Assembly (NCBI GenBank): GCA_018902385.1
Contig: JABSSW010000006.1
Location: 962,458 to 1,026,457 of the forward strand
Source: Physcia stellaris
Taxonomy: Eukaryota; Ascomycota; Lecanoromycetes; Caliciales; Physciaceae
Direction: 5' to 3'
DNA length: 64,000 nucleotides
The position numbers and the translations under genes were made by a program. The notes below the pieces were generated by a model. It searched no databases. It saw only the letters and a program-made list of their open reading frames with translations, and had not been told where the DNA came from. This document shows positions 18,650 to 64,000 of the stretch, one piece after another. How positions within the stretch are numbered: the stretch's first letter is position 1; every line of letters starts with the position of its first letter.

Positions 18650-19299
18650 ATAGAATCTTGCATCTACAATTTTGCGTAAACTTGTCATTGATGAAACTTA
18701 ATAAAACTTCAACATTCGATTGCAAAATTAAATGAGTCAAATCATAATTGTGTGAATCAACAATCGTTTCTTTTTCGTTAATTAACACGCGAATTTTTTC
18801 AATTTGCGAATAAACATAAAAAATACGATTCAAACAACGCTTTTTCGCATTCAATAAAATCGATTCGAAAATCATTGCAATGATTTTACATGTTGCGAAT
18901 TCGTAACATATTGCGTTAAATTTTTAACAAACGCAAAAATTTTATAAATCGACAATAAAATAACGATAATACGACAAGTAAAAATACAAAATCAATATTT
19001 CAAATTAAAATCATAATTTAAATTTGAATAACAAAATATAAAAATCGATTTTCGAAAATATTATATTACAATTGTGATGATTTTGATTTCGAATATTATG
19101 TTATATCAAAATCGTCAAACATGTTAATTTGATCGAGTTTAACGTTTTGATCGATAAAATATAACATTTCGAAAATTTTCATTTTTTTCGTTTTCACGAT
19201 TCAATTTTATCATTATTCACAATGTTATCACGATGATTCATCATCGTTTTGTAAATATTGTTACGAACATGTTTGACAAATAAATTTAACAAATAGATA
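18650..19299. other. AT-rich sequence without recognisable feature
   Basis: Left margin of the AT-rich block, before the pogo-like element. A 77-codon minus frame (18642-18875) is Lys/Ile-rich and unrecognised. Confidence 0.4.
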
Positions 19300-19337
19300 C
19301 AGTAAATTCTCGTTACAGAAAGTCGAAATTTCGAAAA
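19300..19337 (+). repeat. left terminal inverted repeat of the pogo-like element
   Basis: Begins CAGTAAATTCTCG directly after a TA; its mirror is at 21741-21778. Both copies keep the ApG in ACAGAAAGTCGA, so mutation of the ends is incomplete. Confidence 0.75.
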
Positions 19338-19612
19338 CATAAATTTTTTGTAACTCGAAACTTCTTGTAAGTCAGATGATTGAAATCTAGAATTATGTTA
19401 CAATTCTAGAAGTTAAATTTTTCTGAGCAAATTATCGCAATTTATTTTCAAAAATATCGAGCAAATTTTCATACAAATCGATTCTATTTTTTCAGCGAGA
19501 TTTTCTGATTTATTAAAAAATCAATTCGTTCATTTTTGCAGTCTTTACATCAACGTATGAGTGCGAAGATTTTTCGCAAATCAAATGCAAATCAACTATT
19601 CAATTATTTTAA

Positions 19613-19840
19613 TCATCGATTTAATTTTATTTGTTGATCGACATATTGTTTTCTTCGTTCGATTTTTCGTTTATATCGTTCAAGTTGACAAATGACTTCA
19701 ATATCGTCATGCTTCTGTTGTTTTTCGTACAATTGAATGAGTTTCAAAGTCGCAATAGCGATTTTGACGATAATTTTGAATTTCACTTTTTTCATTTTCG
19801 ATTTTGATTTCGTTAATGATTTTTCAAGTCGATATTTCAT
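19613..19840 (-). pseudogene. decayed helical reading frame inside the pogo-like element
   Basis: A Lys/Glu/Gln-rich segment (KYRLEKSLTKSKSKMKKVKF; QLERYKRKIERRKQYVDQQI) that ends in a stop near the left end. Upstream on the same strand the frame continues with similar composition, interrupted by TGA codons. It probably is the C-terminal coiled coil of the element's protein. Family not recognised. Confidence 0.4.
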
Positions 19841-21401
19841 AATAATCTTTTCACAATCTTTTCATCGTTCTTGTCAATCGAATCGATTATTATTTCGACT
19901 TTTGAACGATCGTAATGAGCGATCGATCAGTCGTTGACGTCAGACGTACGATTTTTACGTTTCAAAGCAATGATATTTTTGATCATTTGCAATCGAACGT
20001 TTTGCAAAATCTGTTTCGATTCAGAAAATTGTTGCATTGTTCGATCATGTTTTCGACTAAATCGTCGTTTGTTTGAATTATTTGATACATTCATATTCGG
20101 AATCAATACGATTGATTTGATTCAGCAATTGTTGATAATTTTGACGATGATTTTATTCTTTCAAATTTCAACGACTCATTTGACGATTTTCAGAACGTTG
20201 ATGATTTGATGTAAATTTTTTTCGAATTTTGCATCGAATTTTTTCACGCAATATCGAAATCATTTGTTTCGATATCACAATTTTCATGACGCAATGATAT
20301 TTTGATCGAGCGATTGACAAACGCTCGTGATATTGATCGACAAAAACAAGATTTTAATATTTTGCATGAATTCGTTTTCTTTCAATTTTCGTAAATCAAT
20401 ATCGATTTCATGCGTCGAAAAGTCATCTATTAAAAGCACGCATTTTTCGTTGAATATTTTTTTTCGAAATCAGTTCAGATATTCGTCAAATATTTTATCA
20501 ATTATTCAAGCAAATCGATTGCTTCGTCACATCATACGTAAATTTTCGACGTTTACATCATGAAATTCGAACGCTCGAAAATTCATGACAATTTCAATCA
20601 ATCATGATTTGAGCTTATGCGAATCAGAAACATTGATGCATAAAATCGTCGTTATTTTGATTTTGTTTTTTTTTATATTTTCTGTTGATTCGTTCGAAAG
20701 AATATTATCAAACATTGCTCGTCAAAATCATTTTGTTTCATTCATATTGTATACATCATGCAACGAGAAGTCAAAATTCAATCAAATTTTGATTTCGTTG
20801 CGTAACTTTTCAAGATTTTGTTTCAATTGTTGTTTATTCATTTCGTTTGATTCGTCATGTCGAACATGTTTTTTCGTATGATGACGAATTTTGTATTCGT
20901 CTAATCAATCATTCGAAGTTTTGAATTTCTTGATCGTGCTTTTGATTTTTTGATATTCAGAAATCAGCTCGGCAAGTTTATTTCAAATCTTCAAAATTCA
21001 TTTTTTCAGTATATTTTCGTTTATAGACATTCGTTGCTTTTTCTTTTTCAATTGTCATTGAAACAACGCATTTTTCATTTTTTTTCATTTTTCTTGTCTA
21101 TTACGACAATGAGAGTTTTGAATTTGAGTGTCGTCAAGTCAAAATTCATGCGAATCGATGCAACGACGAATTACATCGTTTGAAAAATCGTCGTTTTCGT
21201 ATTTTCGACGATATATTTGTCTAACGATTGCGTATGAAAAAGATTTATTTTGTTTCAAACAATAATCGAATCAGAATTTTCTAATGAATTTTCGTTGTTT
21301 CACGATATAATTGTGACGTTTTCGCTTCGACGAAGAATTTATAAATGTGTTGAATGAAATAAGATTGCTTTGAATCAACGACGAAACAGAAACAAAAAAA
21401 G

Positions 21402-21593
21402 TTGAAATCTGAAAGAAAATCGAAAAAATATATTCATGACGAATTCAACGATGTTGAGAAAACGAAATTGACAAAATTTGAAAACACGAATGCAAAAAAT
21501 AAAACATCACGAAAATGTTCGATTTGTATGAGCGATTTTCAACGAATCAACGATTCAAATCGTGTTTCAAATTTATGCGAAGTTTGCATTTGA
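21402..21593 (+). pseudogene. small frame with CxxC...CxxC zinc-binding motif
   Basis: Near the right end of the pogo-like element, on the plus strand, a 63-codon frame is Lys-rich and ends with CSICMSDFQR, then NLCEVCI: two CxxC pairs 18 residues apart, as in a zinc ribbon. It faces the minus-strand frame at the other end. Whether it is a separate gene of the element or a nested insertion is unclear. Confidence 0.35.
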
Positions 21594-21740
21594 TTCAATT
21601 AATTTTTTTATTAATTTTTTTATTAATTTTTTTACAAAGAGTCTGATCAATTGTATCGAAGTATTTCGTGTAAATCGAAATTTCGATGATTATATCAAAA
21701 AATCAAAATTTCGACGTTTGACATTTTTTGTAAAGCGAAA

Positions 21741-21778
21741 TTTCTTATAATTCGACTTTCTGTAACGAAAATTTATTG
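21741..21778 (-). repeat. right terminal inverted repeat of the pogo-like element
   Basis: Read on the minus strand it begins CAATAAATTTTCGTTACAGA and is followed outward by TA. Matches the left repeat apart from two transitions in the first 28 bases. Confidence 0.75.
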
Positions 21779-22606
21779 TAATTAATATGATATGTGATCG
21801 AACAACGAATTATGTTTTAATTTTACGTTGAAATTAACGTGATTTGAAATTTGACGTCGCACATTGTTTGCAATTTTAACATTTTGTATTTATTTGTTTT
21901 TGCAAATTTATTGTTTTCGTTTAATTAATCAATAATACGTTTATTCAAACACGATTCATGATATTACAATAAATTTTCAATTTTATCGTTCGTCGTGATA
22001 CGCGAACGTTCAAAAATAAAATTTCAAATCGATCAAATTCTTTTGACGAAACAAACAACGAAAAAATTCTGTTGATCAAACAAACGATCAAAAAAAAATT
22101 TGACGAGACATTTGACGAAAATCGTAAAATAACAAATCGAATTTTCACGCAAACGACGATAAAAAACGACGAAAAAAAAATTGATTCGATTAATTTTTTT
22201 TTTTATCATTTTTCAATTTTTCATTTCTATTTATGACTCAAAATCATCACGAAACAACTTTTTTCGAATTTTTTTATTTCGATGAAACAACGTTTCAAAA
22301 CGTTACGTTTCAATGTAAATCGTATGTTGCACGAAATCAATGATAATTTTCTCGACGAAAATTTCGTCGAACAATTCAAACGTCATCGATTTGTTTCAAC
22401 GATCGAATTCATAAAAATGAAAAATAACAAAATCATTCATTTTTTGAACATCGTCATTATCGATCAGCTAAAATGATAAGTCAATCAAAAAATCAACGAT
22501 TTTTTGAAAAAAATCGATCGAATACGCATCGATCGTGACAATTATTTGAACGTTTTGATTTAATATCAAAATTTGTACAATATTGTCAACGTCGATCGTG
22601 ACGAAT
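21779..22606. other. AT-rich sequence between elements
   Basis: Mutation-saturated DNA between the pogo-like and Ty3 elements; ends with the CGAAT target site at 22602-22606. The frame 22282-22476 (plus) has no recognisable motif. Confidence 0.4.
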
Positions 22607-22761
22607 TGTTACAAATCGATTTTTGTCTGATTTGAAAAGCTTGTTTTTGTTTGATTTCATTGATTTGACTAATCGACTTGACATTGACATTTATTCGAGT
22701 TTTTTGTATTTAACATTTTATCATTTTCTTATTATTTCATCAATGAATCAATGTTTTTACA
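22607..22761 (+). repeat. 5' LTR of the Ty3 element
   Basis: Starts TGTTACAAATCG, ends TGTTTTTACA; 155 bases. Matches 29943-30097 along its whole length with mostly C/T and G/A differences. Confidence 0.9.
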
Positions 22762-23450
22762 ATTAATAATATCATTTTATCAATCAATCGTTATTATCGC
22801 ATCAATTGATTGCGTAATAACATCAATCAAATCAACTTTTGTAATCTATTTGCAAAAGTTTTTTGTTTTTTTTCAATTCGTGTTACATCGATCGATTTCG
22901 TCAATTTATTTATCAAGTTTTTTTGCTTTTTCATTGTATGAATATTTTATCTCAATTTTATCTTGATTTATCGACAACAACAAATTGTATTTGTTTTTCT
23001 GTGTGTTAGAAAGTTTTTCACAATTCGTTCAAACTGATTTCTATCAACAATTTCGTGTCATCAATTTTCATTTCGAAAACACACGAGTTTCATCGTTTTC
23101 TTCAAACTAAACATCGTGAAATCGAAAAATTTAACGAAAAAATCAAACAAATCATAATTGTTATCGTCGTTTCGAATTTTTCTTTTAGTCGTTTTGCATT
23201 CAGTTTTCGAAATACAATCAAATCAATTTTTTCGAAATCGATCGAATTTTCTGTCGAATGAAATACGAATATCAATGTTTTTCGACGAGTTGTTCAAAAA
23301 TTTCGTGAATATATTACTGTTTACAGAATTTCAATTATTTTTCGAAATTTTTTGAATTCACACATTACGAATTCAATTTTCAACATTTTCAACTCGTCGA
23401 ACGATTCGTCAATTACAAAATTTTTTTGAATTTCACGTCATCGTGACGTT

Positions 23451-24760
23451 TTGCTACAGTCGATTGTAAAAACAATCGAACGACGACGAATATTTACGTT
23501 CAGTTTTTCGTCAATTATCAATCAAGATCAGCGAAGTCGAAATCTATTTCTATTCGAATTTATTCGATTCAACGATATCAATAACAATTTTGCAAAAACA
23601 TTTGATTCAAATTCAATTGATATTCGAATCATCTCAATTATTGAAAAAAAAATTCGTGACAACATGAATCAAAATACGCAAATTGACAATTCAATTCAAT
23701 CGTTTGCGTTTGATTTCAACGAAACTCAACGTCGTGAAATAACGAAAATCGTTGTTGTCGTTTTAGAACATCGACGTCGTGATCGAAATGACGATGAAAA
23801 TTTAAGTTACAATTCGTCGAATTTCGATAACAATTTTCAGTTTTCAGTTGATCATAACAACAATACTGACGAGTAAAAAATGAAAAATATTGACTTTTTC
23901 GATTTTGATTACGATAACGACATTATCGTCAACGTGAATAAATCAATAAAATATTTCGACAAACACATTTATTATATTGATGTTTATGTTTTCGTCGATC
24001 GTTTGAAAAATCTAATTTCGTTACGAAATGAAAACAAATTTCGTATTGTTTTGTCACAATGTTTTCGTGATTACGTTCAAGAATGACATTCATTGATTTT
24101 GTTCGAATTGAAAAAGAATTTGTTACGAATCGTTTCGTTAATCATTTGATATCAGATTTTAATCAAATCATTCAAAAAACGAACAGTTCAAACATTACAG
24201 AATTTACAAAAAAAACAATATATCATGTCAGACGCTAAACAGCAACGTAATTCTCGTATGTACGTTCAAAACATTTTTCGACATATCAGAATCGTTGAAT
24301 TCGAATTTGTTTTCAATCAATTTATTTTAATTTGATTTAATTTTGATTATGAATTTCGACGCGACATTTCAAAATCAAAATCGAATATTACGATACGAAT
24401 TTTTCTTGATCATTTGAAGAAAAAATTCGACATATGATTCGACATAGTTAACAAGTTCGTTTTTAGTTCGAAATTTAACAATAGCAATCGTTTCAATAAA
24501 CAAAACAAACGTGATCGACAAAACGAATTTTCTCAATCGTCAAATGAATTTAACGCTTTTTTTTTTCAAGTTTATCGTTTTGTCGATTATTTCGTTTTCG
24601 TTCAACAAAAACAAATTTATCAAAAACAGTCGTTCGTTCAATCAGAACGTCGTCAAATCGTTTTGTTATTCGCAAAGCAATTATTGCTGTTAACGTCAAA
24701 AAACGCGTTCGATTTCAAAAATCAATCACGTCAACAAAAAAAAATTTGACGATCGTGATA
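23451..24760 (+). pseudogene. Ty3 gag remnant
   Basis: Two consecutive frames (23451-23876, 23880-24086) and broken continuations encode a gag-like protein: FFDFDYDND, YYIDVYVFVDRLKNLISLR, IVLSQCFRDYVQE, then YIMSDAKQQRNSRMYVQNIF in the next frame. These follow the order seen in ascomycete Ty3 gags (capsid helices with a VFVDRLK block and a late YVQNIFRH block). Gag forms the virus-like particle. Stops are largely TGA where Trp is expected (EWHS, NSRMYV context). Confidence 0.75.
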
Positions 24761-24789
24761 ACAAAAATTTCAAATGTAAAATTTATGTT

Positions 24790-25404
24790 TTGAATGAATT
24801 TGAAAAGAAAAACGATCAAAAATCAATTGAGAAAGATTTTTTCATCGACGAGATTAGCGAAAATCAATCAGCATATTATTTCGAAAATTTAATTTATTAT
24901 GATTTTGATCATTTTAACGATTTTGATCATGAATCGACAATTAATCATTTCATTTTGTCAATCGTTTTTATTTGTCGTCGTTGTACAAAGTTTTTCGTTT
25001 CAAACAACAAATTTCATAATCACATTCGTAATGTCGAATGTTCTGATTTTAATGTTCGATTGAAAAAGTTTTTTTCAAATCAACAATTGAATTTTTTTAA
25101 AAAATCGAAATCGATGTTATCGATTCACATGTCGTCATTATTTTTATTATTAAAATTATCAAAAACTCATTTGAGTCAAATTTTAATCATGATTCAATAT
25201 CGATTGTTTCGTCAAATGTTGATTTTTCAAAAAATATTGAAATTGATTGTGAATATCGTGACTGAAATTACGCGAAAATTGACGTTGTTTTGTTCGAAAA
25301 AACTGAATCAAAATTCGTTTGCATTGATATTGAATCAAAAATCATTATTGCGAATCGTCGATTTTTTTTTCGTCAAAATTTTGATTTGTTTATACGTATT
25401 ATGA
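24790..25404 (+). pseudogene. zinc-finger segment between gag and protease
   Basis: A 204-codon frame with an acidic, Tyr/Phe-rich N-half (YYFENLIYYDFDHFNDFDHE) and a finger CRRCTKFFVSNNKFHNHIRN: C-x2-C-x12-H-x5-C. The same finger type recurs at 35.9 kb, 40.7 kb and 57-58 kb in the other LTR elements. In this position it may be the nucleocapsid-type nucleic-acid-binding part of Gag. Confidence 0.65.
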
Positions 25405-25660
25405 TTACATTTTTTATTGTACGAGAAATAATTATTGATCAACATCAAATTTTTGAATACGTCATTGTTTCGATGTATTTTTTTGATCAAAAAAATGACA
25501 AAATCGTCAAAATTATGATTCGTCGCGAAATTCATTTGATGAACAATTTCAAAATCAACATGTTCATCGACAATGATGTCATTGATTTTGAAAAATGAAA
25601 CATTGACAACGAACATAACAAAATTACGATTGACAATTGCGACGTTATTATTTTTATTAA
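25290..25660 (+). pseudogene. Ty3 protease-like segment
   Basis: Frame with YVIVSMYFFDQKND, IMIRREIHLMNNFKINMFID and NDVIDF, matching the second half of a retropepsin-like domain (the IDND block corresponds to the IGND commonly seen before the flap end). A closely similar remnant occurs at 36,328-36,615 in the neighbouring Ty3 element. The active-site Asp region is not clearly readable. Confidence 0.55.
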
Positions 25661-26399
25661 CATTCGTCGTCGATCGTCAATTGATCAATCGATGCACAAA
25701 TCAATGCATATCAAAAAAACAATCATTGTTTCGTCGCAATCAGAAATGATCATTTCAATTCATTATTTTGTCGACAATATTTTTAATGATTGAGATTATT
25801 TTTTCGAATCAAATGAAATTGAACTTATTTTGTATGTTCATTTTATAAACATTTTTATCGAAATTATTCTTGTTCGTAATGACGACAAGCAAATTGTCAA
25901 AATTTCACGTAATTATCGTTTAAATTATTTCATTGAATTCGATTATTTAAACGCGTTTTTCGTCAACGACGATAACGTTGATTTGATCATGAAAACATTT
26001 CGCATTATTCACAAAATCTCGTGATTCAAAAAAATTATCGTCATTTTCGTCACGACGTTGATCGCTATTATTGTCGTCGTTACGTCAATTCAACTAATCA
26101 TCATCGTTATTTCGTTGACGATACGCATCGAATCGATTTCGTTTCTGATCAATGTTGACAACGTTAATTTGTCACAAATTTTCATTTTATTTAACGATTT
26201 GCGAAAACTTTTCGATTTGCGAAAATTTTCCGATTTGCGAAAGTTTTTCACAAATCAGACTTTCGACTTTTCAAAAAAATTGAAATTTTCGATTACGTTT
26301 ATCATTTCATCGTCGAACATTGTGTTATTCAATAATGTCACTATTTATTTTTTCGACGAGACGAAAGCTTTTCGCAATCTGATCGTTGAATTTTCGATT

Positions 26400-27220
26400 T
26401 TGTGAACAAACAGCGAATTTGCTGATTTATCGAAAAAAAATTGAATGAAAATATTTCTTAAAACAGACTGAAAAAATAAAATCTTTGAAAAGACTAAAAT
26501 GTATTTTTTGAAAATTAGAAATCGTGCTTTTGTCGATAAAATTTTCGACGAATTACACGATTTAAATCGATTATTTTGAATCAACGAATTTATTTCATTC
26601 AGTTATTCAGTGTTTTGTGTTTGAAAAAACGTTAATGAAAAGCGTAAAAATCGCGTTGTCGTAAATATTCGAAAATTTAATGTCATCATTCAATCGAATG
26701 TTTATTTTTTGTCGTTTCAAATGAAAATCATTTCAATCGTCAAGAATTGTTTTTATATTATTGTCGTGAATGCATTCGTTTTTTTTTATCAATGACGAAT
26801 ACATTCAAATGATCGACACAAATTCATTGTAATGAATTATCGAAATCAGAAATCATTCAACGTTGTCGTAATGAAATATAAAAATTCGTCTGTTTACGTG
26901 CAACGACAAATTGATCGATTATTTCGTGTTTATCGAAAATTTGTCAAAACATACGTTGATGATATCGTCATTTTTTCACGAATTTGACAAGAACACGTTA
27001 ATCATTTGCGTCAAATATTTATCAAATTGATTAACGTCAATATATTCATCAAATTTATTAAAACATTCATTGATTATTCGTCAATGCAATTATTGAATCA
27101 GAAAGTCGACTCGCTTGATTTATTCACTAGTGAAAAAAAACTGAAAATCATTGCTAAATTTCAGTTTTTTCGTATTTTTCGTCAACTGGAAATTTATTTT
27201 GATTTTACTGATTGAATGAA
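26400..27220 (+). pseudogene. Ty3 reverse transcriptase remnant
   Basis: Readable pieces in order: KIFDELHDLNRL, VVVNIRKFN (the first catalytic region), VYVQRQIDRLFRVYRKF, then FVKTYVDDIVIFSRI with the YVDD box (about 26,940-26,985), followed by a TGA and QEHVNHLRQIFIKLINVNIF, and LNQKVDSLDL with a palm/thumb motif. This is unmistakably a Ty3-type RT. The stop after FSRI stands where Trp is expected; CAA and CGA codons around it are intact. Confidence 0.9.
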
Positions 27221-27276
27221 AAAATACGTTTTATTTTACGTCGACGTGTCAAGATCTTTACAAAAAAAAAACTATT

Positions 27277-28038
27277 TTGCTAAAGTCTGTTTTCAAGAAA
27301 GAAAACGCTAAAAAAACTTTCGTTAATCGAATTAAAATCGACAATGCAACGTCAAAAAAACGAATTTCATACGAAATACTTCAATTTTTATTTTCGAAAT
27401 TTTTTTATTTCATTCATCATGATTCGAAACGTCAAATTTATGTGAATTTGAATGTCAACAAAAAGTTCGACATCGACGTTGTAATTTATTATGTTAAAAA
27501 TTTTTTTATCAAGTCAAACGAATATTCAGTCAAATCGTTTATTCAGTCAATAATGTTTTTGTTCAAATTACTGAATTCGATCGAAATTCGCTATTGATCG
27601 ATTGAGATGAAAATCGCTGACATAATGTGAATATTGCGAAAAATTCGTTATTTCATCGAATCATTCATTTCGTTTATCGTTATTTACATTGATCATGACG
27701 TTGCGTTAAACATAATCAAACAAATTATTTTTTCGTTTTCGTCGACAAATAAATTGAATTTTCGACTAATTCGTGTCAGCGATTATATTCAACGTTTCGA
27801 TTTGAATATTCGTCATAAATCAAACAAGTTTCATTTTGTGTCGAATGTCTTGTTTAAATTCGTTAATTTCAACGATTCACAAACATCGTCGAAAGAAAAA
27901 CTCGATGCTTTTTTCATTTTCGTCGACGTTGACACAAATCATTCAAATGTTGACGCATACTTTATTTGCTCGTTAATAAAAATGAATGATGTTTTTCGAC
28001 TAAAAATTCTAAATAATTACAAAATCGATTTTAGTTGA
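27277..28038 (+). pseudogene. Ty3 RNase H remnant
   Basis: Frames 27277-27597 and 27634-28038: RQIYVNLNVNKKFDIDVVIY (first catalytic region), SIMFLFKLLNSIEIRY with the Glu region, then VIYIDHDVALNIIKQ (TDH-like block) and FRLIRVSDYIQRFDLNIRHK ending in NVLF. Order and spacing match Ty3 RNase H. Confidence 0.88.
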
Positions 28039-28047
28039 AATCGAATT

Positions 28048-29250
28048 TTGAACGTCTTAAACATCGAAAACGACGTCAATTTTTTTTTTGAAAAAAAAAA
28101 TCAAAAATTTATTTTTCGCGTTGATGATTTTATTGACGATCACGTTTTCATTTTTCGTCGACTTTGTATATCAAATGCGATCGTCAAAAATGTGCTGAAA
28201 ATTGTTCATGACGACTCAAATGATCATTCAGAATACGCAAAATGTTATGAGCAAATCGCTTCGACATAATATATTCGTAATTTGATTCGTCAATTACGCG
28301 ATTATCTGAAATATTGTTCAAAATGTCAAATTAATCGAATCAAACGTCATCAATCACACGATTCGTTACAATTTATTTTGTCGTCAATCATTTCTTTTCA
28401 CACGTTTAATTTAGATTTTATTTTTGCGTTGTCAATATCACGCGTCGAACAATTCAACGTCGTTATGTCGATTACGTGCAAGTTCACAAAACGAATTATC
28501 ATTGTGTTAGACAAGAATATTTGAACAATCGCTCAATGAAGTCGAATTTTACTGAATCAATTTGATTTCGACGATTGAAAATTATTCAAAATTTTGATAT
28601 TTGATCGAGATCGAAAATTCATGAAACATTTCTGACGAGAAATTTTCACACGTCTTGATGTGAAATTATTGTACAATACAGTTTATCATTCACAAATCGA
28701 TGAACAATCGAAAAAAATTAATCAAACAATCGAAAAAAACTGATCAAACAATCGAAAAGAATTAATCAAACAATCGAAATTGTTTTCAGATTTCTCATTA
28801 ATGTGTTGAATAATTTCGCAAACTGAATTGAAATCATATCTGATATTCAACGAGACATTAACAATTCGATAGTCATCGTTATTGACAAAACGTTTAACGA
28901 AATTTCGTATGAATTTATTTTTACGCAAATTTTCGATTTGTTGAAATTTTTCGAAAAATCGTCGCTATCGTTATCGCAAATAACTCGACAAAAAACTGCA
29001 AATGTTTTGATTTTTGCACAAATGAATTTCAAATTCTATTACGATCGCAAACATCAATCGATTAATCTCGTCGTCGACGATTGAGCACAAATTCGTTTTC
29101 ACAAAAATTACGACATTTTTTCGATCGCAATGCTAAATAACAAATTTAATTAACAATACATTGCGTTTTTTCGTGTCACGAAAAAAATCGATAAATTAGT
29201 TTATCGACTGAATATTTTCAAAAAATAAATTATTCATTCGATTTTTTTTA
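28048..29250 (+). pseudogene. Ty3 integrase remnant
   Basis: Zinc-binding HHCC part: IVHDDSNDHSEYAKCYEQIA then LKYCSKCQINRIKRHQSHD. Core: FHTFNLDFIFALSIS (first Asp), CKFTKRIIIV, ILIFDRDRKFM (second Asp), LLYNTVYHSQIDEQSKKINQ (Glu region, normally QSERTNQT). A 22-base tandem triplication sits just after this motif (28,705-28,770). Multiple TGA stops at Trp positions. Confidence 0.85.
28705..28770 (+). repeat. 22-base tandem repeat, three copies, in the integrase remnant
   Basis: Units start CAATCGAAAA and end ATCAAA at 28705, 28727 and 28749, followed by a partial fourth CAATCGAAA. Units differ by a few substitutions. 22 is not a multiple of three, so the expansion shifts frame. Confidence 0.85.
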
Positions 29251-29339
29251 TCGTTCAGTTGAAATCATGTTTTGATTCAGTTAAAAAAATTTTTCGACGT
29301 CATCGTTTTATTCAATCGAATTTTGTTTTCGTCGAAAAA

Positions 29340-33222: not shown

Positions 33223-33227
33223 ATTGT

Positions 33228-51238: not shown

Positions 51239-51379
51239 TTTTTTTTTTTTTTCAATAATGATCGAATCGATCAAAACAACAATTTTTGAATCATGATATG
51301 ATAAAATTAAATTTTACGTATCGTTTTAATAAATCATTTGCAACAAAATAAAAAATCGAACATGCGTTTTGAACGTCAA

Positions 51380-53440: not shown

Positions 53441-53819
53441 TAAAATCTGAACAAAAACATCTCTTTTTGAATGTGCTTTTTCTGAAAGTGAAATTTCTTT
53501 TGAAAAATCAAGACTTTTTTCGAATCGAAAATCGAATCAAACATCGTTTTTCGAATGTCAAAATTCGTTTATTTCGAATTCGTCGTTGTGTTCATGAAAA
53601 TTTGAAAAACTCGATGATTTTGATCGTAATATGAATAATTTTCGTCGAATCGAACGTTTTTAATAATGTGAATTTTTCGAATGCGTGAATTGTAAATTTT
53701 TCATTGATTATTATTTGCGTAATTTACGAAAATGTTTTTTCATGAACGATCGTCAAGTTTGTGACGTTTGATGATTTTGAAAACGTGAATATATGTTTTG
53801 CAATTCAACGTTCGAAAAT

Positions 53820-54420: not shown

Positions 54421-55074
54421 TTCATATCGATAATTTTATTGAAATTTGCGATGACGTTACGATATTTCGAATGAATCAAACGACGATGTCAAATTTTCAA
54501 ATCGATAATAAATTTAATAAACGCGAAAACGTATGTTTTTGACACGAATATCGCAAAAATAACAATTTTCGTGACAGTGAAAATCGTATTTATCGAATTC
54601 TGAACGATACGCAATACGAAAAAATCGTTAATTAAATCGATTTGAATTATCAAATCGTCGTTTTTGTGTAATTCGATTGATTTATCAACAAAATATGTAA
54701 TGATTCATTGTCGATGATACAATTTCGATGTATTGATTAAATTGACGATGAAATCAAAAATATACATAACATCAATAAGCGTCAAAATTTTCTTATTAAA
54801 AAGAATAATAATAATATTGTTTAAATTTTCAACGTTGAATGTTTATCGTTTGTTGTATTTGCGATATCGTTGATTTTTTTCAATTGTTTTGAAAACAACT
54901 TTTTATTGTTTGAACAATGATGAATGATTTCGAAATCGAAAATTCAAATAAAAAATGAAAAGCGATTAAAAATCATTTTATTAATCGATATTTGCATTAT
55001 TTCAATGTGAACTTTTGATGTAAAGAAAATAATGAAATCAAAATTCGTTATAATAATGTTTTTTTTTTGCTCGA

Positions 55075-55614
55075 TTATTCATTCAAAATAACGAGTTTTT
55101 TCAAATCAAATACAATTGATTGATTTATGATTTCGTGAATTTTCACAATCGCTGTTATCACAAATCTCGTTTTTATTCGAACAATGCTCATTGTCGAATT
55201 GATAAATGATGTAATATTTTTTGCATAAAAATCGAATAAAATCATTATTGTTATCTGTATCACGTTCATTTTCACGATCATTTCGAAAATTGCGATCGTC
55301 ACGATTGTTATTGTTGTTGTTATTTTTGTTATCGTCGATTCGAATCAAATTGAAATTGATCAAATTTATTCGATTTTTTTTTTGTTCGACAGCGATAATG
55401 AACTTGTCGATATCAAAAAAATCATTGTTTTTTTTGTTTCGTTGTTTTTGACAATTAAAAACGTCTCGAAAATTGAATCGAGATTATTGAGCATTTTTAT
55501 TATTATTGCGTTTTTCATCGTGATATTCAAATCGATGATTTCTTTGAAAATGTTTTTGTATGCGATTTCATATTTCGTAACATTTTTGCAATTCGAATAA
55601 TGAATTTGTTTCAA
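55075..55614 (-). pseudogene. Copia gag remnant with zinc knuckle
   Basis: QIHYSNCKNVTKYEIAYKNI, FKEIIDLNITMKNAIIIKML, NNLDSIFETFLIVKN; then an Asn/Asp/Arg-rich run encoded by GTT/ATT repeats and a knuckle with CKK, HCSNKNEICDNSDCENSRNH. Frames 55614-55366 and 55363-55106. Confidence 0.75.
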
Positions 55615-56227
55615 ACGATTAAAAACGAATCATTTGTAAAATCAACTTTGTGATAAATATCGTTTTTTTAAATAATTTCATGTTTTTTTCGCAATTCAAA
55701 CAGAATCGAATAATTGTTGTATGTTGAAATCACACATGTTGACAATTCGATCAACAAATGTTGAATTTTTTCGAATTCAAATCAGAAAATTTTGTTCGAA
55801 ATTTCGTTTCTGAATATACAACATTGTTTTTCATATTTCGTCATTTGATTTCACAAACTTCTTTCGAACATTTTGTGAATCGAAAAATTCGTAAAGTTTT
55901 GCAATTCGCATGACGTTGATCATTTGACGATTTCATTCATGATAATTTTGAAAATTTGTCAATTTTGAAAATTTTCAAAAAAAATTTTCTCGATTTCGTT
56001 CGTCATTTTGATGTAATATGTGCATTCTAAAATCGAATTCGACGAAGTTGAAATAAATAAAATAATGTAATAAAAATGATTGAAATTCGAAAATCGATGA
56101 AATTGTTCGCGTTTTTCGAATTTGTTTTGCAATACAACAATGTTGTAAACGATTGTTCAATAGAATTGATTCAAAAATTCGACGCTCTGTTGTTTTATAA
56201 ACAAGCAAAAGTTTCGAATTCATAATT

Positions 56228-56401
56228 TTTCAAAATAACAATGATTCTGAATGAATGCGTTGATTCAATTAATTAAAAACATCTATTTAAAAATGAAAAT
56301 ACATGATGTGAAAATGTCAAGATGTTAAAAAGCACGTGATGCACGAATCGTCATATTATTCGATTAAATTATTTATTGTTTTGAATTTTTATGTTTCAAC
56401 A
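56228..56401 (-). repeat. 5' LTR (minus) of the Copia element
   Basis: 174 bases matching 51063-51238; terminal TGT at the left has decayed to TTT. Followed by TCAGT. Confidence 0.88.
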
Positions 56402-56406
56402 TCAGT

Positions 56407-56600
56407 TTGTAATGAATCAGATTTCGAACAATATAACGAAATCGCGAACTTTTGCAACATTTTGAACAATGTTAACATCTATATCGCAAGTCGAATTTGT
56501 TGAATTTATTGTCGAAATGTCTGTGTGATTTCGCGTTTGAATGATTCAAAATTCAATTTGAATTTATTTCGTTGAAACGTTTCGATAGAATTTTAACGAA
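56407..56600 (+). pseudogene. gag-like segment of the large element, 3' part after the nested insertion
   Basis: Continues the frame broken at 51,062 once the nested element and one copy of TCAGT are ignored: CNESDFEQYNEIANFCNILN, then NVNIYIASRIC and a stop. Confidence 0.5.
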
Positions 56601-56729
56601 AGCGTTTTCAGAAACGTTCATATGACGTGTTTCAAAAAGTTCGAATTTTCACTTAAGTACACTCGATGTTATATCAAAATCGATCGAGATTTCATCAGAT
56701 TTTGAAATTACAAACGTTCGAGTAATTTG

Positions 56730-58110
56730 CAAATTTTGCAAACAAAATTTCAATTTCAACAACGAATTATACGAGCATATTCGCAATCATGAAATTTCGA
56801 AATTCGTTAAAAATTCGCATTTTTCGATCAATGTAATCAATTTAGTATGCGAAATCGAGAAAAATCATTCGTTTCGCAAAAATCGCATGAATCATTCACA
56901 AAATTTCAGAAATCGATATTCGAATTTGCAATAACAATTGAAACAATCATTTTATTGAAACGTTCGATTTTTCAATCTTTACACTCGAAATTGCATCGAA
57001 ATCGATGAAAAATTATTAACGTGTCGACATTGCGACGAGATTTTCAATTTCAAAAAATCGTTTCGCGAACATAAACGCGAACAACATGCAAAGAAATCTG
57101 TCATTAATTCGTTTTTTCGATTTCGTGCATTCAAATCAATATGCAAAGCAAAAAAAAAATCAACAATCAAAAATGTGACGACTTTGTTTGTTTCGCAAAA
57201 ATTGTAAATTTCTGCTCAAAAATTTCAAAAAATCGATGTTCAAAAACGTTCAATCGTTAATTCACATTTTTCGATCGATACAATTCAATCAACATGTGAA
57301 ACAAAAAAAACATCAACAATTATTTGTTTGTTTTCGTCGTTGAAATCATTAATTTCTATTGTAACATCAAAACAAATATTTAAATTAACATTAATTTTCG
57401 AAATAATCATTTCATTAAAAAGTTTTCATTTTTTAATTCATACATCAAAAACTGTATCAAAATCGAAAAAAAAATGAATCAATTCAATGTTTTTTTATTT
57501 CGTCGAAATCAACATTTCAAACGTTCGAATCAAAATATCAAAAAATTTTTATGCAAAAGTTTTCAGAAATTTGTTCGTTTTTCACTAACGAATTCGTCGA
57601 GAAATCAATTGTCACATGCACGTCGTTTTCGCAAAAATCATCGATCTTTTTTGCAACATCAAAAATCTGATATCAAATATGAAAACAATTTCGCAAATCG
57701 ATTCGTCGAAACGTTCGAATTTTCTGATTATAATATTCGAAATCACATTCGAATATGCGAAAAATACATCAGATTCGATTGCAAAAATCGCAAAAATCGC
57801 AAAAATTTTCGCAAAATCGATCGCGAATATTCGAATTCAAATTGTTCGTTTTCGCATAAAATTAGAAATTGAACGAGCAATTTTTCAATTATTAACATTC
57901 GAATTTGCATCAAAATCGATGAAGAAATTTTCGATTAAACAGATCGTTTGCGTTCGAATTTGCAAACGTTGCAAACAAAATTTCAATTTCAATAACAAAT
58001 TTCACGAACATATACGTCAACATCATGTTCGAAATTCGATTAAAAGTTTTGATTTTCGAATTTTTGCATCAAAATTTACATATAAAATCAAAAAAAAAAT
58101 CAACAATTGA
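56730..58110 (+). pseudogene. array of degraded C2H2 zinc fingers
   Basis: At least three fingers in different frames: CKFCKQNFNFNNELYEHIRN at about 56,730-56,790; CRHCDEIFNFKKSFREHKRE at about 57,020-57,080; CKRCKQNFNFNNKFHEHIRQ followed by HH at about 57,960-58,030. The last has a classical C-x2-C-x12-H-x4-H pattern. Their mutual similarity suggests internal duplication within one protein, or several genes in tandem. Confidence 0.6.
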
Positions 58111-58347
58111 ATGTTTTTTTGTTTCGTTCGTTTCGTTTATTTTTTTGCAACATCACGAAATCAGATATTTTCGACGAAAATAATTTCGCAATTTCTATTA
58201 TCGAAATGTTCGAATTTTTCGATTGCGACATACAAAATTAAATTAAAATCGATAAAAAACGCAATCGTCGTTTGTTCGTTCGTTTTTTCATTTACTTTTT
58301 CAACATTTGTTCGAAAACATCAAGAATTTTACATTTAAAAATTCTAT

Positions 58348-58877
58348 TTGATTGTGAATGATTTGAATCGCATGTTTGTTGAAAAATTTAAATCGTTGAA
58401 TTTGCAACAACATCATAATCGTCGTTTTTTCAACAAAGTTTCGATATTCGTCAATTTCGCTCGATCAAATCTTATTTCATTATCGAAATTCTGTTCGACA
58501 TGTTCGATGAAAAATTCAAAAAAACGAATTTATTTCAAAGTCAAAACAACGTTTTTTTTCAAACATTTTCAAATCAAATGCAAATCATCGTTTATTTCAA
58601 GTTTACAATCAATCAGAAATCGTCAATTGATCAAATTTCGAAAAATTCAAAATCGAAAATTTCGAAACAACACATGTTTGCGAAATCAATTCGCATTGTT
58701 TTCAACAAAAACTTGTTTGAAAAATCGATCAAATCATTATACAAATTGCTTTATGTTTTCGACGAGATTTCTTTTTTCATTTTCATACTTTTTCGTCTTT
58801 TTTCGATTTTTTTTTTTGTTTTCGCATTCGTTTCGATCATTTTCGCTGCACGAATGAATTGTATTAACGTTTATTAA
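58348..58877 (+). pseudogene. DDLxRMF-motif protein remnant, first copy
   Basis: Reads MIVNDLNRMFVEKFKSLNLQ, QHHNRRFFNK, then in the overlapping frame NLFQSQNNVF and QHMFAKSIRIVF. These blocks line up with LTVDDLHRMFAGKPSPFGLQ, PSQNKPLSPRSF and QHMPAEAFRASF in the unmutated protein at 39,713-41,010, in the same order. Confidence 0.6.
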
Positions 58878-59199
58878 CAAGTCGTTTCGATCATTGATCG
58901 TGTCAATATTGAATTTATCGTTTCGAAACGAAATTGAAAAAAAAACGAGAAATAAATTGCTCGAATATTCAGTCACGAAACATTAAAAGTTCGAATTTTC
59001 AATGTTTTACATTCAAAATCACGTACAAAATCAAAAAGAAATTAACAATCGTTTGTTCGTTTGTTTCGTCAATTTTTTCGTTTTTGCAACATTTACATTG
59101 ATATTTGAATCAATATCATCGAAATGTTCGCATTTTTCTATTGCGACATTTAATATCACATCAGAATCAATGAAAAAATTATCAATTTTATCTTTTCGA

Positions 59200-59300
59200 A
59201 CATTCGTATCAAAACATCAAAAATTTTATTTCATTATTCATGATTTGATTCGCATGTTTCGTGAAAAGTTTAAATCATTTGATTTACGTTAATATCAAAA
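59200..59300 (+). pseudogene. DDLxRMF-motif protein remnant, second copy
   Basis: FIIHDLIRMFREKFKSFDLR, preceded by FVSKHQKFY as the first copy is preceded by FVRKHQEFY. A tandem second copy of the same C-terminal motif. Confidence 0.55.
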
Positions 59301-60597
59301 AAATTTTGTTTTTTCGCAAACTTTTGACGTTCGATCATTTGTCACATGTCAATTTCGTATTATCGTTTATTTTTTGTTTGCAATCAATCAAAAGACATCG
59401 ATTAATCAAAATTTAAAAGTTCGAATTCGAAAAGTTTTTAACAACACATGTTTTCGAAATATTGTTTATTAATGATTGACGAAATCATCTGTAAAATTTT
59501 TGCAAACTATTTGATTTTTAGAAAATTTATTACATGCACGTTCTGCTGAATTCAATGTACGAATCAATTTTCATATATGCGCAAATATCAATGCGTTAAA
59601 CATCGAAGCAATGATTCTATTGACATGACGAAATTGTTTGTTTCGTGATGCAATCGATTTGATGTTTTAAACGATCATTTTCAAATGATCGTCGAAATTG
59701 TTTTTGAAAAATTGTTTAAATCAATTATTTTTCAAAAAAATTTATTACATTCAAATTGCGTTGAATGCAATGTACACATTAATTATTGCGTATGCATAAA
59801 TATCAACGCGTTAAACGTTGTTGCGTTGATTTTATTAACATGATCAAATTGTTAATTTTATCGTATAATTCGTTTGATGTTGCAAGAATTCAATGTTCAC
59901 ATTAATGTTTTCATTACATTTAAAAGTTCGAATTTTCGATTTTTTACATTCTAAATTACGTATTAAATTCTGAAAAAACAAATTTTCGTTTTATCATTTA
60001 CGTCATTGTTTGCATTTTTCGCGAATTGATTGCGAATCAATTTTTTATCAATTGCAATGATTTCGATTTCAAATATTTCGCATAAATTTGCATTCGTCAT
60101 TAAAGCACAAATATTTTTATTCACATCGAAAGTTTGATAAAAACGAATCGTTATTTTGATCAGAAATTCAAAACGTTGAACAATTTTCTCATTTCGATTA
60201 GTCGATTTCAAAATTTTCGAATTTCAAATATTTTCAAATGATTTATCATATCATTTATTCACAAATATCATGATTCATGTTTCGCAATTCGATTTCGAAC
60301 AGAAATTCGAAAACGTTTTTTCATGTTTTTTTTTGTATTTGTATTAATTATTAATGAATATCGCATGCATGTTCAAAAATTTGTCAAAAAAAACGTTTTT
60401 TCATCATACGAAATGACGCGATATTTTTGCATATTTCAATTGTTTTAATAATTTTTTCACATTTCGATTCAAACGTCAACTTTTTCGAAAATTTTCATGT
60501 CAAAAAAAACGATCGTTTCATCATATTAAACGTCAAATATTTTTGACATTCAACGATTTTCGCAAATACAAAATCAAACAGTTTGCAAAAAATTTTT

Positions 60598-60632
60598 TCG
60601 TCGTTTTCGTCGTTTTCGTCGTTTTCGTTTTT
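60598..60632 (+). repeat. short tandem repeat TTTTCGTCG
   Basis: Three to four 9-base units just inside the 3' end of the large element. Confidence 0.8.
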
Positions 60633-60788
60633 TCAATTCAGATTTTTGATCGTCTTCACGATTGTCGCGTTCGTTATGAACGTTACACGTTTACGAACAA
60701 ATCATCGAGATCACGTACTCTGTCGATCGACGAAAAAAAAAAAATCAATTGATCGTTTCGAAACGAAATTGAAAAAAACGAAAAATAA

Positions 60789-61003
60789 TGTGACGAACGT
60801 GTATCGATTTGACATTTAAAATCAATATTTGATCAATCATTAAAATTAACATTTTTATTTTATCACATCGAATGACAAAATCGAATTTCGTTTATAATCA
60901 ATTTTTTTATATATGTTTTGTCAAATTTTTTGCATTTGTTTTTTCATTTCGATATTTTCGTGTAATTATGTAATAATATTATATTTTTGTATAACATTTC
61001 ACA
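60789..61003 (+). repeat. 3' LTR of the large element
   Basis: 215 bases, begins TGTGACGAACGTG, ends ATTTCACA, then CAATG. Confidence 0.9.
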
Positions 61004-61101
61004 CAATGAAAAACAATAATTTTGATTATTTGATTAAACGATTCGAAATCGATTTCGAACGTCGAAATCAATCGAACATTTTTCTCGACGAAACGATCGT
61101 G

Positions 61102-61210
61102 TGTGACGAACGTTTCGTCGATTTCAACATTTGAAATCAACATTTAATCAATCATTAAAATTAACATTTTTATTTTATTATATCGAATGAAAAATCGAAT
61201 TTCGTTTATG
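61102..61210 (+). repeat. truncated LTR of the TGTGACGAACG family, plus orientation
   Basis: Starts TGTGACGAACGTTTCG and follows the LTR sequence to TTTCGTTTATG, where it is abruptly replaced by an inverted copy of the same LTR. Confidence 0.8.
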
Positions 61211-61424
61211 TGTAAAATGTTATGCAAAAATATAATATTATTACATAATTACACGAAAATATCGAAATGAAAAACAAATACATTAAATTTGCAAAAACAT
61301 ATGTAAAAAATTTGATTTTTTGAATGCGTCAAAACGAATTTCGATTTTAACATTCGATGTGATAAAATAATGTTAAATCGATGTTAATTTTGTTAAATGT
61401 TAAATTCGATATACGTTCGTCACA
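61211..61424 (-). repeat. LTR of the TGTGACGAACG family, minus orientation
   Basis: Reads TGTAAAATGTTATGC to CGTTCGTCACA and is followed by TTATTTTTCGTTTTTTTTTT, the complement of the family's polypurine tract. It is therefore the 3' LTR of a minus-strand element whose interior extends to the right. Confidence 0.8.
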
Positions 61425-64000
61425 TTATTTTTCGTTTTTTTTTTCAATTTCGTTTCGAAACGATCAATCAATTTTTTTGTTTTTAACGATTAACGATTTG
61501 CGCGATTTAAATGCGTTATTGAATGACGTTAAATTGAATAATTGATAAATGAACAAATAAATTCGAAATATTGCGAAATCGATTTCGTTCGCGAAATCGA
61601 TTCGTCAAAATCGTGAAAACATCAAATCGATTTACAATGAAATGAACAATTTGATTATGTTAATAAAATCGTCGTAACAATGTTTAAAATTTTGATAATT
61701 TCGCGTATGTGAAAATTGATATATACATCGCATGCGACAAAACGTAAATATAATAATATCGTGAAAAATAATCAATTCATACAATTCGTCAAAATAATTT
61801 CGAAAAATATTAATAAACAAACAATTGAACGCGTTAACGATTTTGAAAATTTTTGCAACATCAAATTGATATCACGAAACGAACAATTTGAACAAATCGA
61901 TAAAATTTTTATCATCACGATTAACAGCGTTGATGTTATCGCATATACGATGTTTGATTCGTACATTACATTCAACGAAATATGTATGTATTAAATTTTT
62001 GAAAAACAAATATTTTGAACGAATTTTACAAATAATTTCGCGTGTCATTAATAAACAATTGAAAATTTTGTTGACGAATTTGTAAATATTTGAATTTTTT
62101 TGACAATTTGCGTTTATTTATTTTATTGCATAACATTTTATATTATCATTTATTGTTCAATAAAATTTGACGACAATTTTTGAAAATGTTTTTGACATAA
62201 TTCAATTTTTCATGCGACGTAAATTTTGATTGTAAATAACGCGAAATGATAACGAAACGAATAATAAAAAAAATTATTGAAATCAATTTGAAAATGAATT
62301 GTAACGAATTCGTTAACAATTTTTTGATCGATTATAAACAATAAAATTCATGATTTAATTATTTCGCAAAACAAATTTTGTTGTTTTTGAATTAATTTCG
62401 TGAAAAACATTCACGATGTTTTGAACATTTTGAAATTTGTTGTCGTCAACGTAATATTATGTTCGATCGTGAAATTTTCATTCGAATCATTTGCAACGAT
62501 ATTGTAATCGATGATAATAATATCGAAATTTTAATATAATATCGAATTTTCATTCAAATATTTCATTTGCAATGTGATTTTGAAAAATCATTATGTTGTT
62601 TTTTCAACGAATTTTTAAAATTTTTTTCAACAATCAAAAATGAAAAAATTGAATAAATGTGTATGTCGTCAAACAATTTCAATTCATGAACGAAAATTTT
62701 TTTTTTTGAATTATTTTGTATGAATTCAATTTTTGTCATCGAATTTGTTTAATGAACGAATCGTTTTTATATGATAACGATTTAATCAAAAATAATTTTT
62801 ATTTCAAAATTTATAAACAAACGAAATTTGTTGATTTGAATCGTATTTTTTTGTTTAACGTCACATTGATTTTGACGTATTCGATAATACGATTCATTTT
62901 TCGACAATGAATTCGTTTTGTTTAATTAACAAACGTTTTTTAATGATTTCAAAATCATTTAAATTCGATTCAAAAATCATTCGAAAATGATAATTTTTAT
63001 TAATGAAAAAAATGAATTCGATAATCGTTGAAACATCGTTATTGTCAACGAATTTCATGATATTTATTCAATCAATTCAATCGTTTTGACGATAATTGCA
63101 ATACAAACGCAATCGAATTTCGATATTTTGATTCGTTCGTTCGATTTGATTATCGATTTTTGATTGAAAAACGATAAATAATTTACATTTGATTTTTAAT
63201 CGTTTACAAAAAAATTTTCAAACGCGATTTACGAATTGATCATTTCGATTTAAAATGATAAAAAAAAATAATTCATGAATACGAAATACGTAATGTATTA
63301 ATATTTTGACACAAATTTGCATTGTTAAATTATCGTCATCGATTACGCAAAAAACGTAATGACGTTTTTTGATTAAACGATCGATAATAATACAAATGAT
63401 ATTGTTGTTTTTGAAATCAAATAATTCGATTACGAATTTATCGAAATATTCATTTATCGTTGATTAAAAATCGACAACGAAATTAACAATTCGTGACGAT
63501 TATCGTGTGAAAATTTCGATCGTTGACATTTGTGACAATTTCGAATATAACGTTTGATAAATAATTTCATATTAAATCAATAATAATAACGTTTAATGAA
63601 TTTTCAATACGATTCATGTTCGAATGCATAAAAAAATTGATCGTAAACTTGTCGCGAATTATTTCAATCATGAAATTTAATCGATTTGATATTTATAAAT
63701 TTTTGTTTTAAATAAAATTTCGTTTCGATTTGAACATTTTTATAAATTTATTTTTCGTTGATAATTTGATTATCGATCAAAATTTGACGATAGTTCTGAT
63801 TTTTCTTTTTTCGATTAATTTGCATTACAGCGTTCGTACAAATCGTTAAATGGCGTTTATTGAACATAATTGAAATCGAAAAAAAAAAATTTGTTTTTAT
63901 AAAATTTTTCACGTCGTTTTCGTTGAACGAGAATTGAACATTCGAATCAAAATATCAATTTTAACGTTTTTGACGTCGAATTGATATTGAATTTTGATAT
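61425..64000. other. AT-rich sequence, probably the interior of a minus-strand LTR element
   Basis: Mutation-saturated to the right edge. By position it should be the inside of the element whose 3' LTR is at 61,211-61,424, with the other LTR beyond the window. I recognise no protein domain in the short frames (for example 61716-61994, 62716-62910). Confidence 0.4.

Follow-up and report, generated by a model that had tools for sequence, protein, structure and literature searches.

Layout of the window and its repeats

The window, meaning the whole 64,000-nucleotide stretch of Physcia stellaris DNA analysed here, contains gene-bearing DNA and AT-rich blocks that have lost C before a pyrimidine (CpY), separated by two islands. 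Its features, with the basis of each, are as follows.

1..18600: control, gene-bearing DNA, about 49% GC, no CpY loss (dinucleotide profile and ORF domains)
18700..38290: CpY-hypermutated block 1, AT-rich repeat DNA (100-bp and 1-kb profiles, C/(C+T) by context)
24001..28500: dispersed repeat inside block 1 (copies on other contigs)
26643..27071, + strand: reverse-transcriptase remnant inside block 1 (tblastn)
38300..41590: island 1, CC/GG present (profiles)
41591..46850: CpY-hypermutated block 2 (profiles, C/(C+T) by context)
42367..45216: nested 2.85-kb insertion in block 2 (copy comparison)
46900..48850: island 2, CC/GG present (profiles)
48900..64000: CpY-hypermutated block 3, reaching the contig end (profiles, C/(C+T) by context)

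Open reading frames in 1–18600 carry PSP1, RasGEF and Nfu/NifU domains. Across the window, ARAGORN returned no tRNA or tmRNA and an Rfam scan gave nothing at gathering score. The left edge of the AT-rich block lies at about 18,600–18,800; from 18,701 to 19,200 the 100-bp profile holds no CC or GG and 0–2 CT/AG per 100 bases. The edges of the hypermutated blocks are sharp.

All parts of the block that we searched are dispersed repeats. Full-length mutated copies of 24001–28500 lie on contigs C16 (93%) and C4 (92%) and partial copies on C63, C23, C78 and C33, and there are many more distant copies besides. The reverse-transcriptase remnant, broken by two stops, shares 54.5% amino-acid identity over 143 residues with an unmutated fragment, L050. 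The nested insertion has a mutated copy on C94 (90%), and its flanks directly adjoin each other at other loci.

A reading of the islands as genes was dropped, as both contain dispersed repeats. In island 1 the repeat spans 39478–41591, and the other two copies fetched (L026, L027) are likewise unmutated; the copies are 83–86% identical over aligned columns along about 2 kb, with a GC content of 0.51–0.52. No Pfam match above cut-off was obtained for two ORFs of this island, and a zinc-finger-like stretch leads us to guess that it is possibly the gag end of a retroelement. In island 2, 47663–48524 is copied on C42 and C6 (85%). At CpC sites the window carries T 32 times and the C42 copy 10 times, a loss which suggests that this island may be lightly mutated.

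Context and spectrum of the cytosine loss

The preliminary description had proposed that C is kept before A or G and lost before a pyrimidine. Its hand counts proved identical on recounting for 24001–24060, and for 45001–45060 they differ in a single value (CA is 4, not 5). We carried out the comparison that it had suggested, observed over expected (O/E) dinucleotide ratios in 18650–64000 (here with the islands included) against 1–18600. The proposal holds: the block shows low values for CT (0.30), AG (0.33), CC (0.19) and GG (0.34) and none for CA (1.25), TG (1.15) or CG (2.97), while all of these dinucleotides and TA lie at 0.76–1.10 in the control. Neither of the two outcomes it had named as contrary appeared, since CpA is undepleted and TpA is under-represented (0.43–0.44). 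The CpA/TpG loss and TpA gain of canonical CpA-type repeat-induced point mutation (RIP) are thus absent, with CpA at 1.25 and TpA at 0.43.

The shortage is genuine and far outside chance. With islands and edges removed (19001–38000, 41901–46700 and 49101–64000; 38,700 bases), we counted 5 CC+GG against 1318.9 in 50 mononucleotide shuffles (SD 32.9, minimum 1249) and 802 CT+AG against 3731.3 (SD 51.6), and found no depletion of CA, TG or CG. Expressed as C/(C+T) before A, C, G and T, the block gives 0.508, 0.001, 0.499 and 0.055, and the control (1–18000) 0.580, 0.440, 0.443 and 0.505. The residual CpT is hardly influenced by the base at −2, −1 or +2, except that none follows C, where CC is gone.

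The direct mutation spectrum was read by comparing an unmutated reverse-transcriptase fragment with seven mutated relatives over about 3,300 aligned bases. C had changed to T at 357/369 CpC, 361/420 CpT, 34/467 CpA and 16/406 CpG sites, that is, at 718/789 CpY sites overall. C>T changes total 768, T>C changes 30 and transversions 9; as the relatives share history, these counts are not independent events. The four 5' contexts of CpC behave alike (ACC 103/103, CCC 52/56, GCC 100/105, TCC 102/105), indicating that the 3' base decides, and the second C of CCA changed in 8 of 117 cases. In a second, noisier family the rates were 52–56% at CpC and 51–52% at CpT; CpA and CpG stood at 19–24%, with transversions just as frequent at these two. 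A dispersed rRNA-gene copy (L051), compared with the Rfam consensus at conserved positions, had changed at 14/16 CpC, 10/23 CpT, 0/17 CpA and 0/20 CpG. For 5.8S, the sole match reported is a mutated copy.

Both the copy spectrum and the rDNA therefore agree with a process that targets C before a pyrimidine, as the preliminary description had it, with the qualification that the preference is very strong and not absolute: about 7–10% of CpA is changed, in the reverse-transcriptase spectrum and in the comparison of the window with C16 and C4. The order is CpC at least equal to CpT, both far above CpA, and CpA above CpG. In that three-copy comparison (24001–28500) transitions make up 290/301, 325/345 and 350/367 of the mismatches. 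Majority polarisation gives more T>C (279 and 169) than C>T (200 and 83), but it is weak, and a T>C excess is expected if two copies share an older change. When the nested insertion is compared with the copy on C94, changes in one direction are more numerous at CpA (82) than at CpT (41).

C-to-T change on both strands of repeated DNA, the mark of RIP, was found. We classed 916 windows of 300 bp (L005–L030 and the window): both strands are depleted in 378 and intact in 460, and 77 are intermediate; a one-strand tract, the sign of a single RIP event, occurred in 1 of the 916, inside island 1, and we claim nothing from it. Our hand tally of stops in 150 scored RVT_1 matches gave about 250 TGA, 34 TAA and 3 TAG. 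Since the loss of CpY converts TGG (Trp) to TGA but leaves CAA, CAG and CGA alone, nearly all stops are former tryptophans, and the damage to proteins is unlike the usual one in arising almost solely at Trp codons.

The signature recurs in AT-rich DNA sampled on other contigs, a sample standing in for the genome-wide repetition that had also been suggested. In the 73 AT-rich kb found among 20 stretches sampled from the 44-Mb genome, C/(C+T) before A, C, G and T is 0.467, 0.015, 0.494 and 0.048, and CT reaches CA in none of the 73 kb. The single AT-rich spot among 20 interior spots carries the same CpY signature. The sampled stretches also contain 112 GC-rich kb, and these, like 1–18600, are of normal composition.

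Hypermutation has not reached every repeat. RIP is described as requiring copies that exceed about 80% identity and 400 bp in length (PMC2621366). Island 1 (83–86%, about 2 kb) and a young pair, L032/L033 (96.6% alike, 477 bp), lie above both values and are not hypermutated. The pair differs by 14 transitions; CpY accounts for 10 of them and CpA or CpG for 4, an excess that may be the first trace of mutation, in counts too small for proof. Together with the copies of island 1 and most of island 2, these sequences suggest that the process is weak now or bound to a threshold.

Candidate processes and enzymes

The direction of change, its context, its dependence on the +1 base, its near-saturation and its occurrence in repeats and in sampled AT-rich DNA elsewhere are established. 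We consider it likely that the block consists of clustered transposons and other repeats in which RIP, or a process much like it, has changed C to T on both strands through an enzyme that wants a 3' pyrimidine. In Neurospora, RID carries out RIP during the sexual cycle. By analogy, a RID-family cytosine methyltransferase-like protein would act here in the sexual cycle, before meiosis, and its contacts at +1 would select for a pyrimidine or for the purine paired with it. The minor activity on CpA could come from a second enzyme or from relaxed specificity.

Other processes were weighed against these data. Ordinary CpA-type RIP with products that other mutation altered afterwards, or repeats that are biased in composition by nature, would fit the low rate of CpA change. 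We judge both refuted by base context and copy spectrum: TpA stands at 0.43, CpA is retained, CC and CT are normal in L031, a relative of these elements that is unmutated, and the change between the two states falls at CpY. Very improbable, too, is a cytidine deaminase of the APOBEC/AID kind that edits transposons as single-stranded DNA or cDNA. Such enzymes typically leave clustered C-to-T changes, but they read their context from the 5' neighbour, a property that defines the family; here the 5' base matters little and the 3' base is decisive, the second C of CCA escapes although it is a target of the CC type, depletion is equal on both strands, and a dispersed rDNA copy is mutated as well. 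A search for APOBEC_N gave no match, but the controls were equally silent and the search carries no evidential value.

We regard it as quite unlikely that silenced repeats were methylated at CpC and CpT and that their 5-methylcytosine then deaminated slowly and spontaneously, a course resembling methylation induced premeiotically (MIP) followed by decay. The genome does hold DIM-2, and in fungi with this enzyme heterochromatic repeats are usually methylated. Nevertheless, the ratio of 718/789 CpY sites to 9 transversions and 30 T>C looks far too lopsided for a clock, and the loss of CpC with retention of CpA would still require a methyltransferase of identical CpY specificity; repeats that are methylated yet unmutated, as in MIP, are not what we see, for the repeats are mutated. 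A last alternative, unlikely but carrying some weight, differs from our preferred reading in the enzyme alone, and assigns RIP mainly to DIM-2, by the heterochromatin route, with a CpY context of its own. It can point to an intact-looking orthologue with a 1118-aa frame and to the second RIP route of Neurospora, which is run by DIM-2 (PMC12543289). According to the same source, Rid1, but not Dim2, was required for the k-mer shift inside repeats in re-analysed Neurospora crosses, and the targets of the DIM-2 route are said to be single-copy regions bordered by repeats. The edges here are sharp, which also counts against this alternative.

As for RIP by an enzyme that would prefer a 3' pyrimidine, genes of the RID and DIM-2 types suggested earlier are present in the genome. 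We found two RID-type genes, one on contig C5 with an EQT triad and one on contig C6 with an EET triad, and one DIM-2 orthologue (match to PDB 9bap, E 5e-188; 1118-aa open frame). The EQT-type RID and DIM-2 look intact as well. Both triads are described for the RID family, and the EET triad for Botrytis Rid, in PMC6709928, by whose account no in vitro methyltransferase activity had been shown for the RID/Masc1 family as of 2019. Among the three candidates we favour, by analogy, the EET-triad paralogue on C6, because Botrytis has both a reported EET-type RID and a reported CpT signature. We further propose, as a possibility that we hold tentatively, that the RID family split in this lineage and that the EET paralogue, as the CpY mutator, replaced the CpA type in repeat defence. 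If so, the choice of RIP target would be an evolvable property of RID, which would exist in CpA, CpG and CpY forms, and in Botrytis and Sclerotinia two RID enzymes would together produce the mixed CpA/CpT signatures.

Relation to known RIP and to RIP indices

Neurospora crassa RIP resembles the process in C-to-T change on both repeat strands, AT-rich blocks and the presence of RID and DIM-2 genes. Its order, CpA>CpT>CpG>CpC (quoted in PMC5496416), is nearly reversed in Physcia stellaris, with CpC and CpT far above CpA and CpA above CpG. Botrytis cinerea, Sclerotinia sclerotiorum and Magnaporthe oryzae show mixed CpA/CpT signatures in which CpT is targeted, and predominates in two of the assemblies (PMC4352252); CpA is there a partner or the main target, while here it is nearly spared and CpC, which the main text of that paper does not mention, is hardest hit. 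CpT-to-TpT change likewise forms a large share of aligned changes in RIP-capable control fungi (PMC7882544) and in Neurospora Tad1, where CpA change is also highly increased (PMC2621366), and the descriptions consulted include no sparing of CpA. Trichoderma reesei illustrates that RIP context varies among species, but it places CpA and CpG first, then CpT, and CpC least (PMC5496416). RIP-like mutation in basidiomycetes (Microbotryum and others) shares a non-CpA context and differs in targeting CpG (PMC4352252), the most protected context here. In the literature searched we found CpT-biased RIP already in print and no report of a CpC-first, CpA-sparing form.

A screen of 1,239 genomes from 2025 describes a CpA preference as common to RIP-like defences (PMC12543289). 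The near-opposite preference seen here suggests that the defence enzyme has another target, and a natural enzyme set whose target is nearly inverted offers a strong handle on the protein that touches the base and sets the context in RIP.

The usual indices miss the signature: in 19001–38000 TpA/ApT is 0.44 (control 0.76) and the composite −0.80 (control −0.45). As they call this DNA un-RIPed, such fungi may be counted as RIP-free in surveys. The preliminary description had held that no standard index would detect the pattern, which is correct for these two and not for the CpC and CpT indices defined in RIPCAL (PMC2621366), which give 0.001 and 0.065 in 19001–38000 against 0.785 and 1.02 in 1–18000.

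Loss of C before pyrimidines in the block

The window forms the final 64 kb of contig C6, in an assembly of 44.0 Mb and 147 contigs. The AT-rich block that fills its right-hand part contains the following features:

~18,600-18,800: left edge of the block, where CC, GG, CT and AG all but vanish over two hundred bases
24001-28500: dispersed repeat with full-length relatives on contigs C16 (93%) and C4 (92%)
26643-27071: reverse-transcriptase remnant with two stops
~38,300-41,590: island 1, interrupting the block
42367-45216: 2.85-kb insertion with a copy on contig C94; its flanking sequences adjoin each other elsewhere
~46,900-48,850: island 2, interrupting the block

The block is repeat DNA in the stretches compared for copies (24001-28500 and 36000-49500). 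The former also has partial relatives on C63, C23, C78 and C33 and many others that are more distant; the latter has many relatives too. The insertion at 42367-45216 is nested in a repeat of ~1.5 kb, which is found unbroken at many other sites in the genome.

The preliminary description had proposed that C is kept almost only before A or G in 18650-64000, and this is borne out both by dinucleotide counts and by the share of C retained in each context. Over 38.7 kb (the block minus islands and edges), CC+GG occur 5 times against 1318.9 expected (SD 32.9) and CT+AG 802 times against 3731.3, expectations being drawn from 50 shuffles. CpG reaches 3.5 times its expectation, a necessary consequence of the loss of the remaining C's elsewhere, and TpA is low (0.43 observed/expected). 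Residual CpT is barely shifted by the base at -2, -1 or +2; the sole clear departure is its absence after C, because CC is gone.

Table. Share of C retained, C/(C+T), by the next base
Sequence; A; C; G; T
Block; 0.508; 0.001; 0.499; 0.055
Control, 1-18000; 0.580; 0.440; 0.443; 0.505
73 AT-rich kb elsewhere in the genome; 0.467; 0.015; 0.494; 0.048

Direction of change between copies

Spectra of change were drawn from two reverse-transcriptase families and the fragment L050, among 20 fragments fetched. L031, an unmutated fragment on C52 (GC 0.50, without stops), served as ancestor stand-in for seven mutated relatives (L037-L041, L043 and L046; GC 0.25-0.30), with 768 C>T changes, 30 T>C and 9 transversions in total; these are site counts rather than independent events, since the seven copies have a common history. 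CpC changed at 93-100% with each of the four 5' neighbours. The same trend appears on a noisier background in a second family of greater divergence (L032 or L033 against L045 and L047); here transversions from C match C>T in frequency at CpA and CpG.

An external ancestor is provided by L051 (C41:44800-46700), a dispersed rDNA copy that covers the 5.8S and the beginning of the large subunit and is mutated at CpC and CpT (together CpY). It was compared with the Rfam consensus at conserved (capital) positions with a conserved 3' neighbour, over the whole 5.8S and the ungapped conserved pieces of all but one of the conserved large-subunit rows. Over all capital positions, changes other than C>T amount to 2 T>C and 1 A/T. 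This result is independent of any transposon assumption. The 5.8S of L051 was the only 5.8S match reported in the genome search, and the assembly may lack the functional rDNA array.

Table. C-to-T change by context (changed sites/sites, or percentage)
Comparison; CpC; CpT; CpA; CpG
L031 to seven copies; 357/369; 361/420; 34/467; 16/406
Second family; 52-56%; 51-52%; 19-20%; 23-24%
Window remnant against L050; 28/37; 28/47; 20/54; 12/56
rDNA copy against Rfam consensus; 14/16; 10/23; 0/17; 0/20

CpY loss converts TGG to TGA but does not touch CAA, CAG or CGA, whereas CpA-type RIP is expected to produce many TAA and TAG. Of 527 candidate RVT_1 matches, 150 were scored; their stops comprised ~250 TGA, 34 TAA and 3 TAG, in a tally made by hand with a possible error of one or two; 10 of the 150 were free of stops. 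Stops in the seven L031-related copies arose from TGG-to-TGA in 12 cases, TGG-to-TAA in 2 and CAG-to-TAG in 1.

Proposed mutator and relation to RIP

It is the 3' base that determines the context. APOBEC enzymes read the 5' side, and thus do not fit as the mutator; a genome search for APOBEC_N gave no match, but its controls were silent too. The 3' context fits a DNA methyltransferase-type enzyme, which would flip its target C and read the next base pair. Slow decay as the source of C-to-T change is argued against by a CpY change that is near-complete with hardly any other divergence, and an active mutator is therefore favoured.

A PF00145 search of the genome returned three genes:

Contig C3: DIM-2 orthologue, 1118-aa frame (PDB 9bap, E 5e-188)
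Contig C5 (L007): RID-type gene, PPCQ, triad EQT in motif VI
Contig C6 (L005): RID-type gene, PPCQ, triad EET in motif VI

In the DIM-2 orthologue the DNA_methylase match is well above cut-off and the BAH match sub-threshold. The in-frame stops of the RID-type genes seem, by eye, to be explained by GT..AG introns, and structure searches with both frames listed only other methyltransferases as matches. The EQT triad is described for Masc1, PaRid and the Rid of N. crassa, and the EET triad for the Rid of both B. cinerea and P. destructans (PMC6709928). Amselem et al. suggested that a motif within the RID proteins of Botrytis, Sclerotinia and Magnaporthe accompanies the CpT bias of these fungi (PMC4352252). 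Given the EET triad and this suggested association, the C6 gene is a first candidate for the enzyme, by correlation only.

The RIP preference of N. crassa is given as CpA>CpT>CpG>CpC, and that of T. reesei as led by CpA and CpG with CpC lowest (both PMC5496416). Monilinia shows CpA change plus CpG-to-TpA and CpC-to-TpT double changes (PMC8959702), Phialocephala is of CpA type with two RID-like genes (PMC5148876), and Badet and Croll 2025 describe a CpA preference common to RIP-like defences in 1,239 genomes (PMC12543289). CpT change in itself has precedents, because CpT-to-TpT was dominant in the alignments of RIP-capable control fungi of Van Wyk et al. (PMC7882544) and RIPCAL found much CpT change in Tad1 (PMC2621366). 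RIP that takes CpC first and spares CpA was not found in the literature searched, which covered few subscription papers, and may exist in print. RIP with a nearly inverted context is the best reading of the feature, which would then be a variant of a known process; RIP sensu stricto, premeiotic and RID-dependent, is our inference.

Spread through the genome and repeats without hypermutation

The CpY feature is real and strong, and is present wherever AT-rich DNA was sampled in the genome. We took 20 stretches (12 are contig starts, three surround the methyltransferase genes, two adjoin the window and three are interior), with 73 kb AT-rich (GC <0.32), 112 kb of GC >0.42 that is normal and 13 kb intermediate. 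CT reaches CA in none of the 73 AT-rich kb, and four exceed 5 CC+GG, two of these being at block edges. Among 20 interior spots, each 1.5 kb long, one is AT-rich and carries the signature. Among 916 windows of 300 bp (L005-L030 and the window), both strands are depleted in 378 and intact in 460, 77 are intermediate, and depletion of one strand only occurs once.

CpA is not immune. In two polarised three-copy comparisons, CpT changed at 109/148 and 33/40 sites, CpA at 54/566 (9.5%) and 45/451 (10%), and CpG at 30/562 and 3/408; the polarisation is weak, because majority T>C (279 and 169) outnumbers C>T (200 and 83), a pattern that older changes common to two copies would produce. Sites with C in the window insertion and T in its C94 copy number 82 CpA, 41 CpT and 27 CpG. 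CpA change seems to continue after CpC and CpT are exhausted.

Hypermutation does not reach every repeat. Island 1, a dispersed repeat, shows none, and neither do two other fetched copies at 83-86% identity. Island 2, also a dispersed repeat, keeps its CC and GG; against the C42 copy, the only one fetched, T replaces C at 32 CpC sites of island 2, with the opposite at 10, and thus the island may be lightly mutated at CpC. L032 (C5:1166521-1166997) and L033 (C12:60312-60788) are young reverse-transcriptase fragments in long open frames, 96.6% alike and not hypermutated. Of the 14 transitions between them, 10 fall at CpC or CpT (8 of these with T in L032) and 4 at CpA or CpG; this may be a first sign of the mutator, in a number too small for proof. 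Repeats of this kind indicate that the process is either currently weak or restricted in its recognition.

Two minor observations were made. Island 1 carries a C2H2-like stretch. The start of contig C2 (L014, C2:1-10000) has a GC of 14-26% and CpA lowered in places, with C/(C+T) of ~0.2-0.5, and is perhaps the most aged mutated DNA seen.
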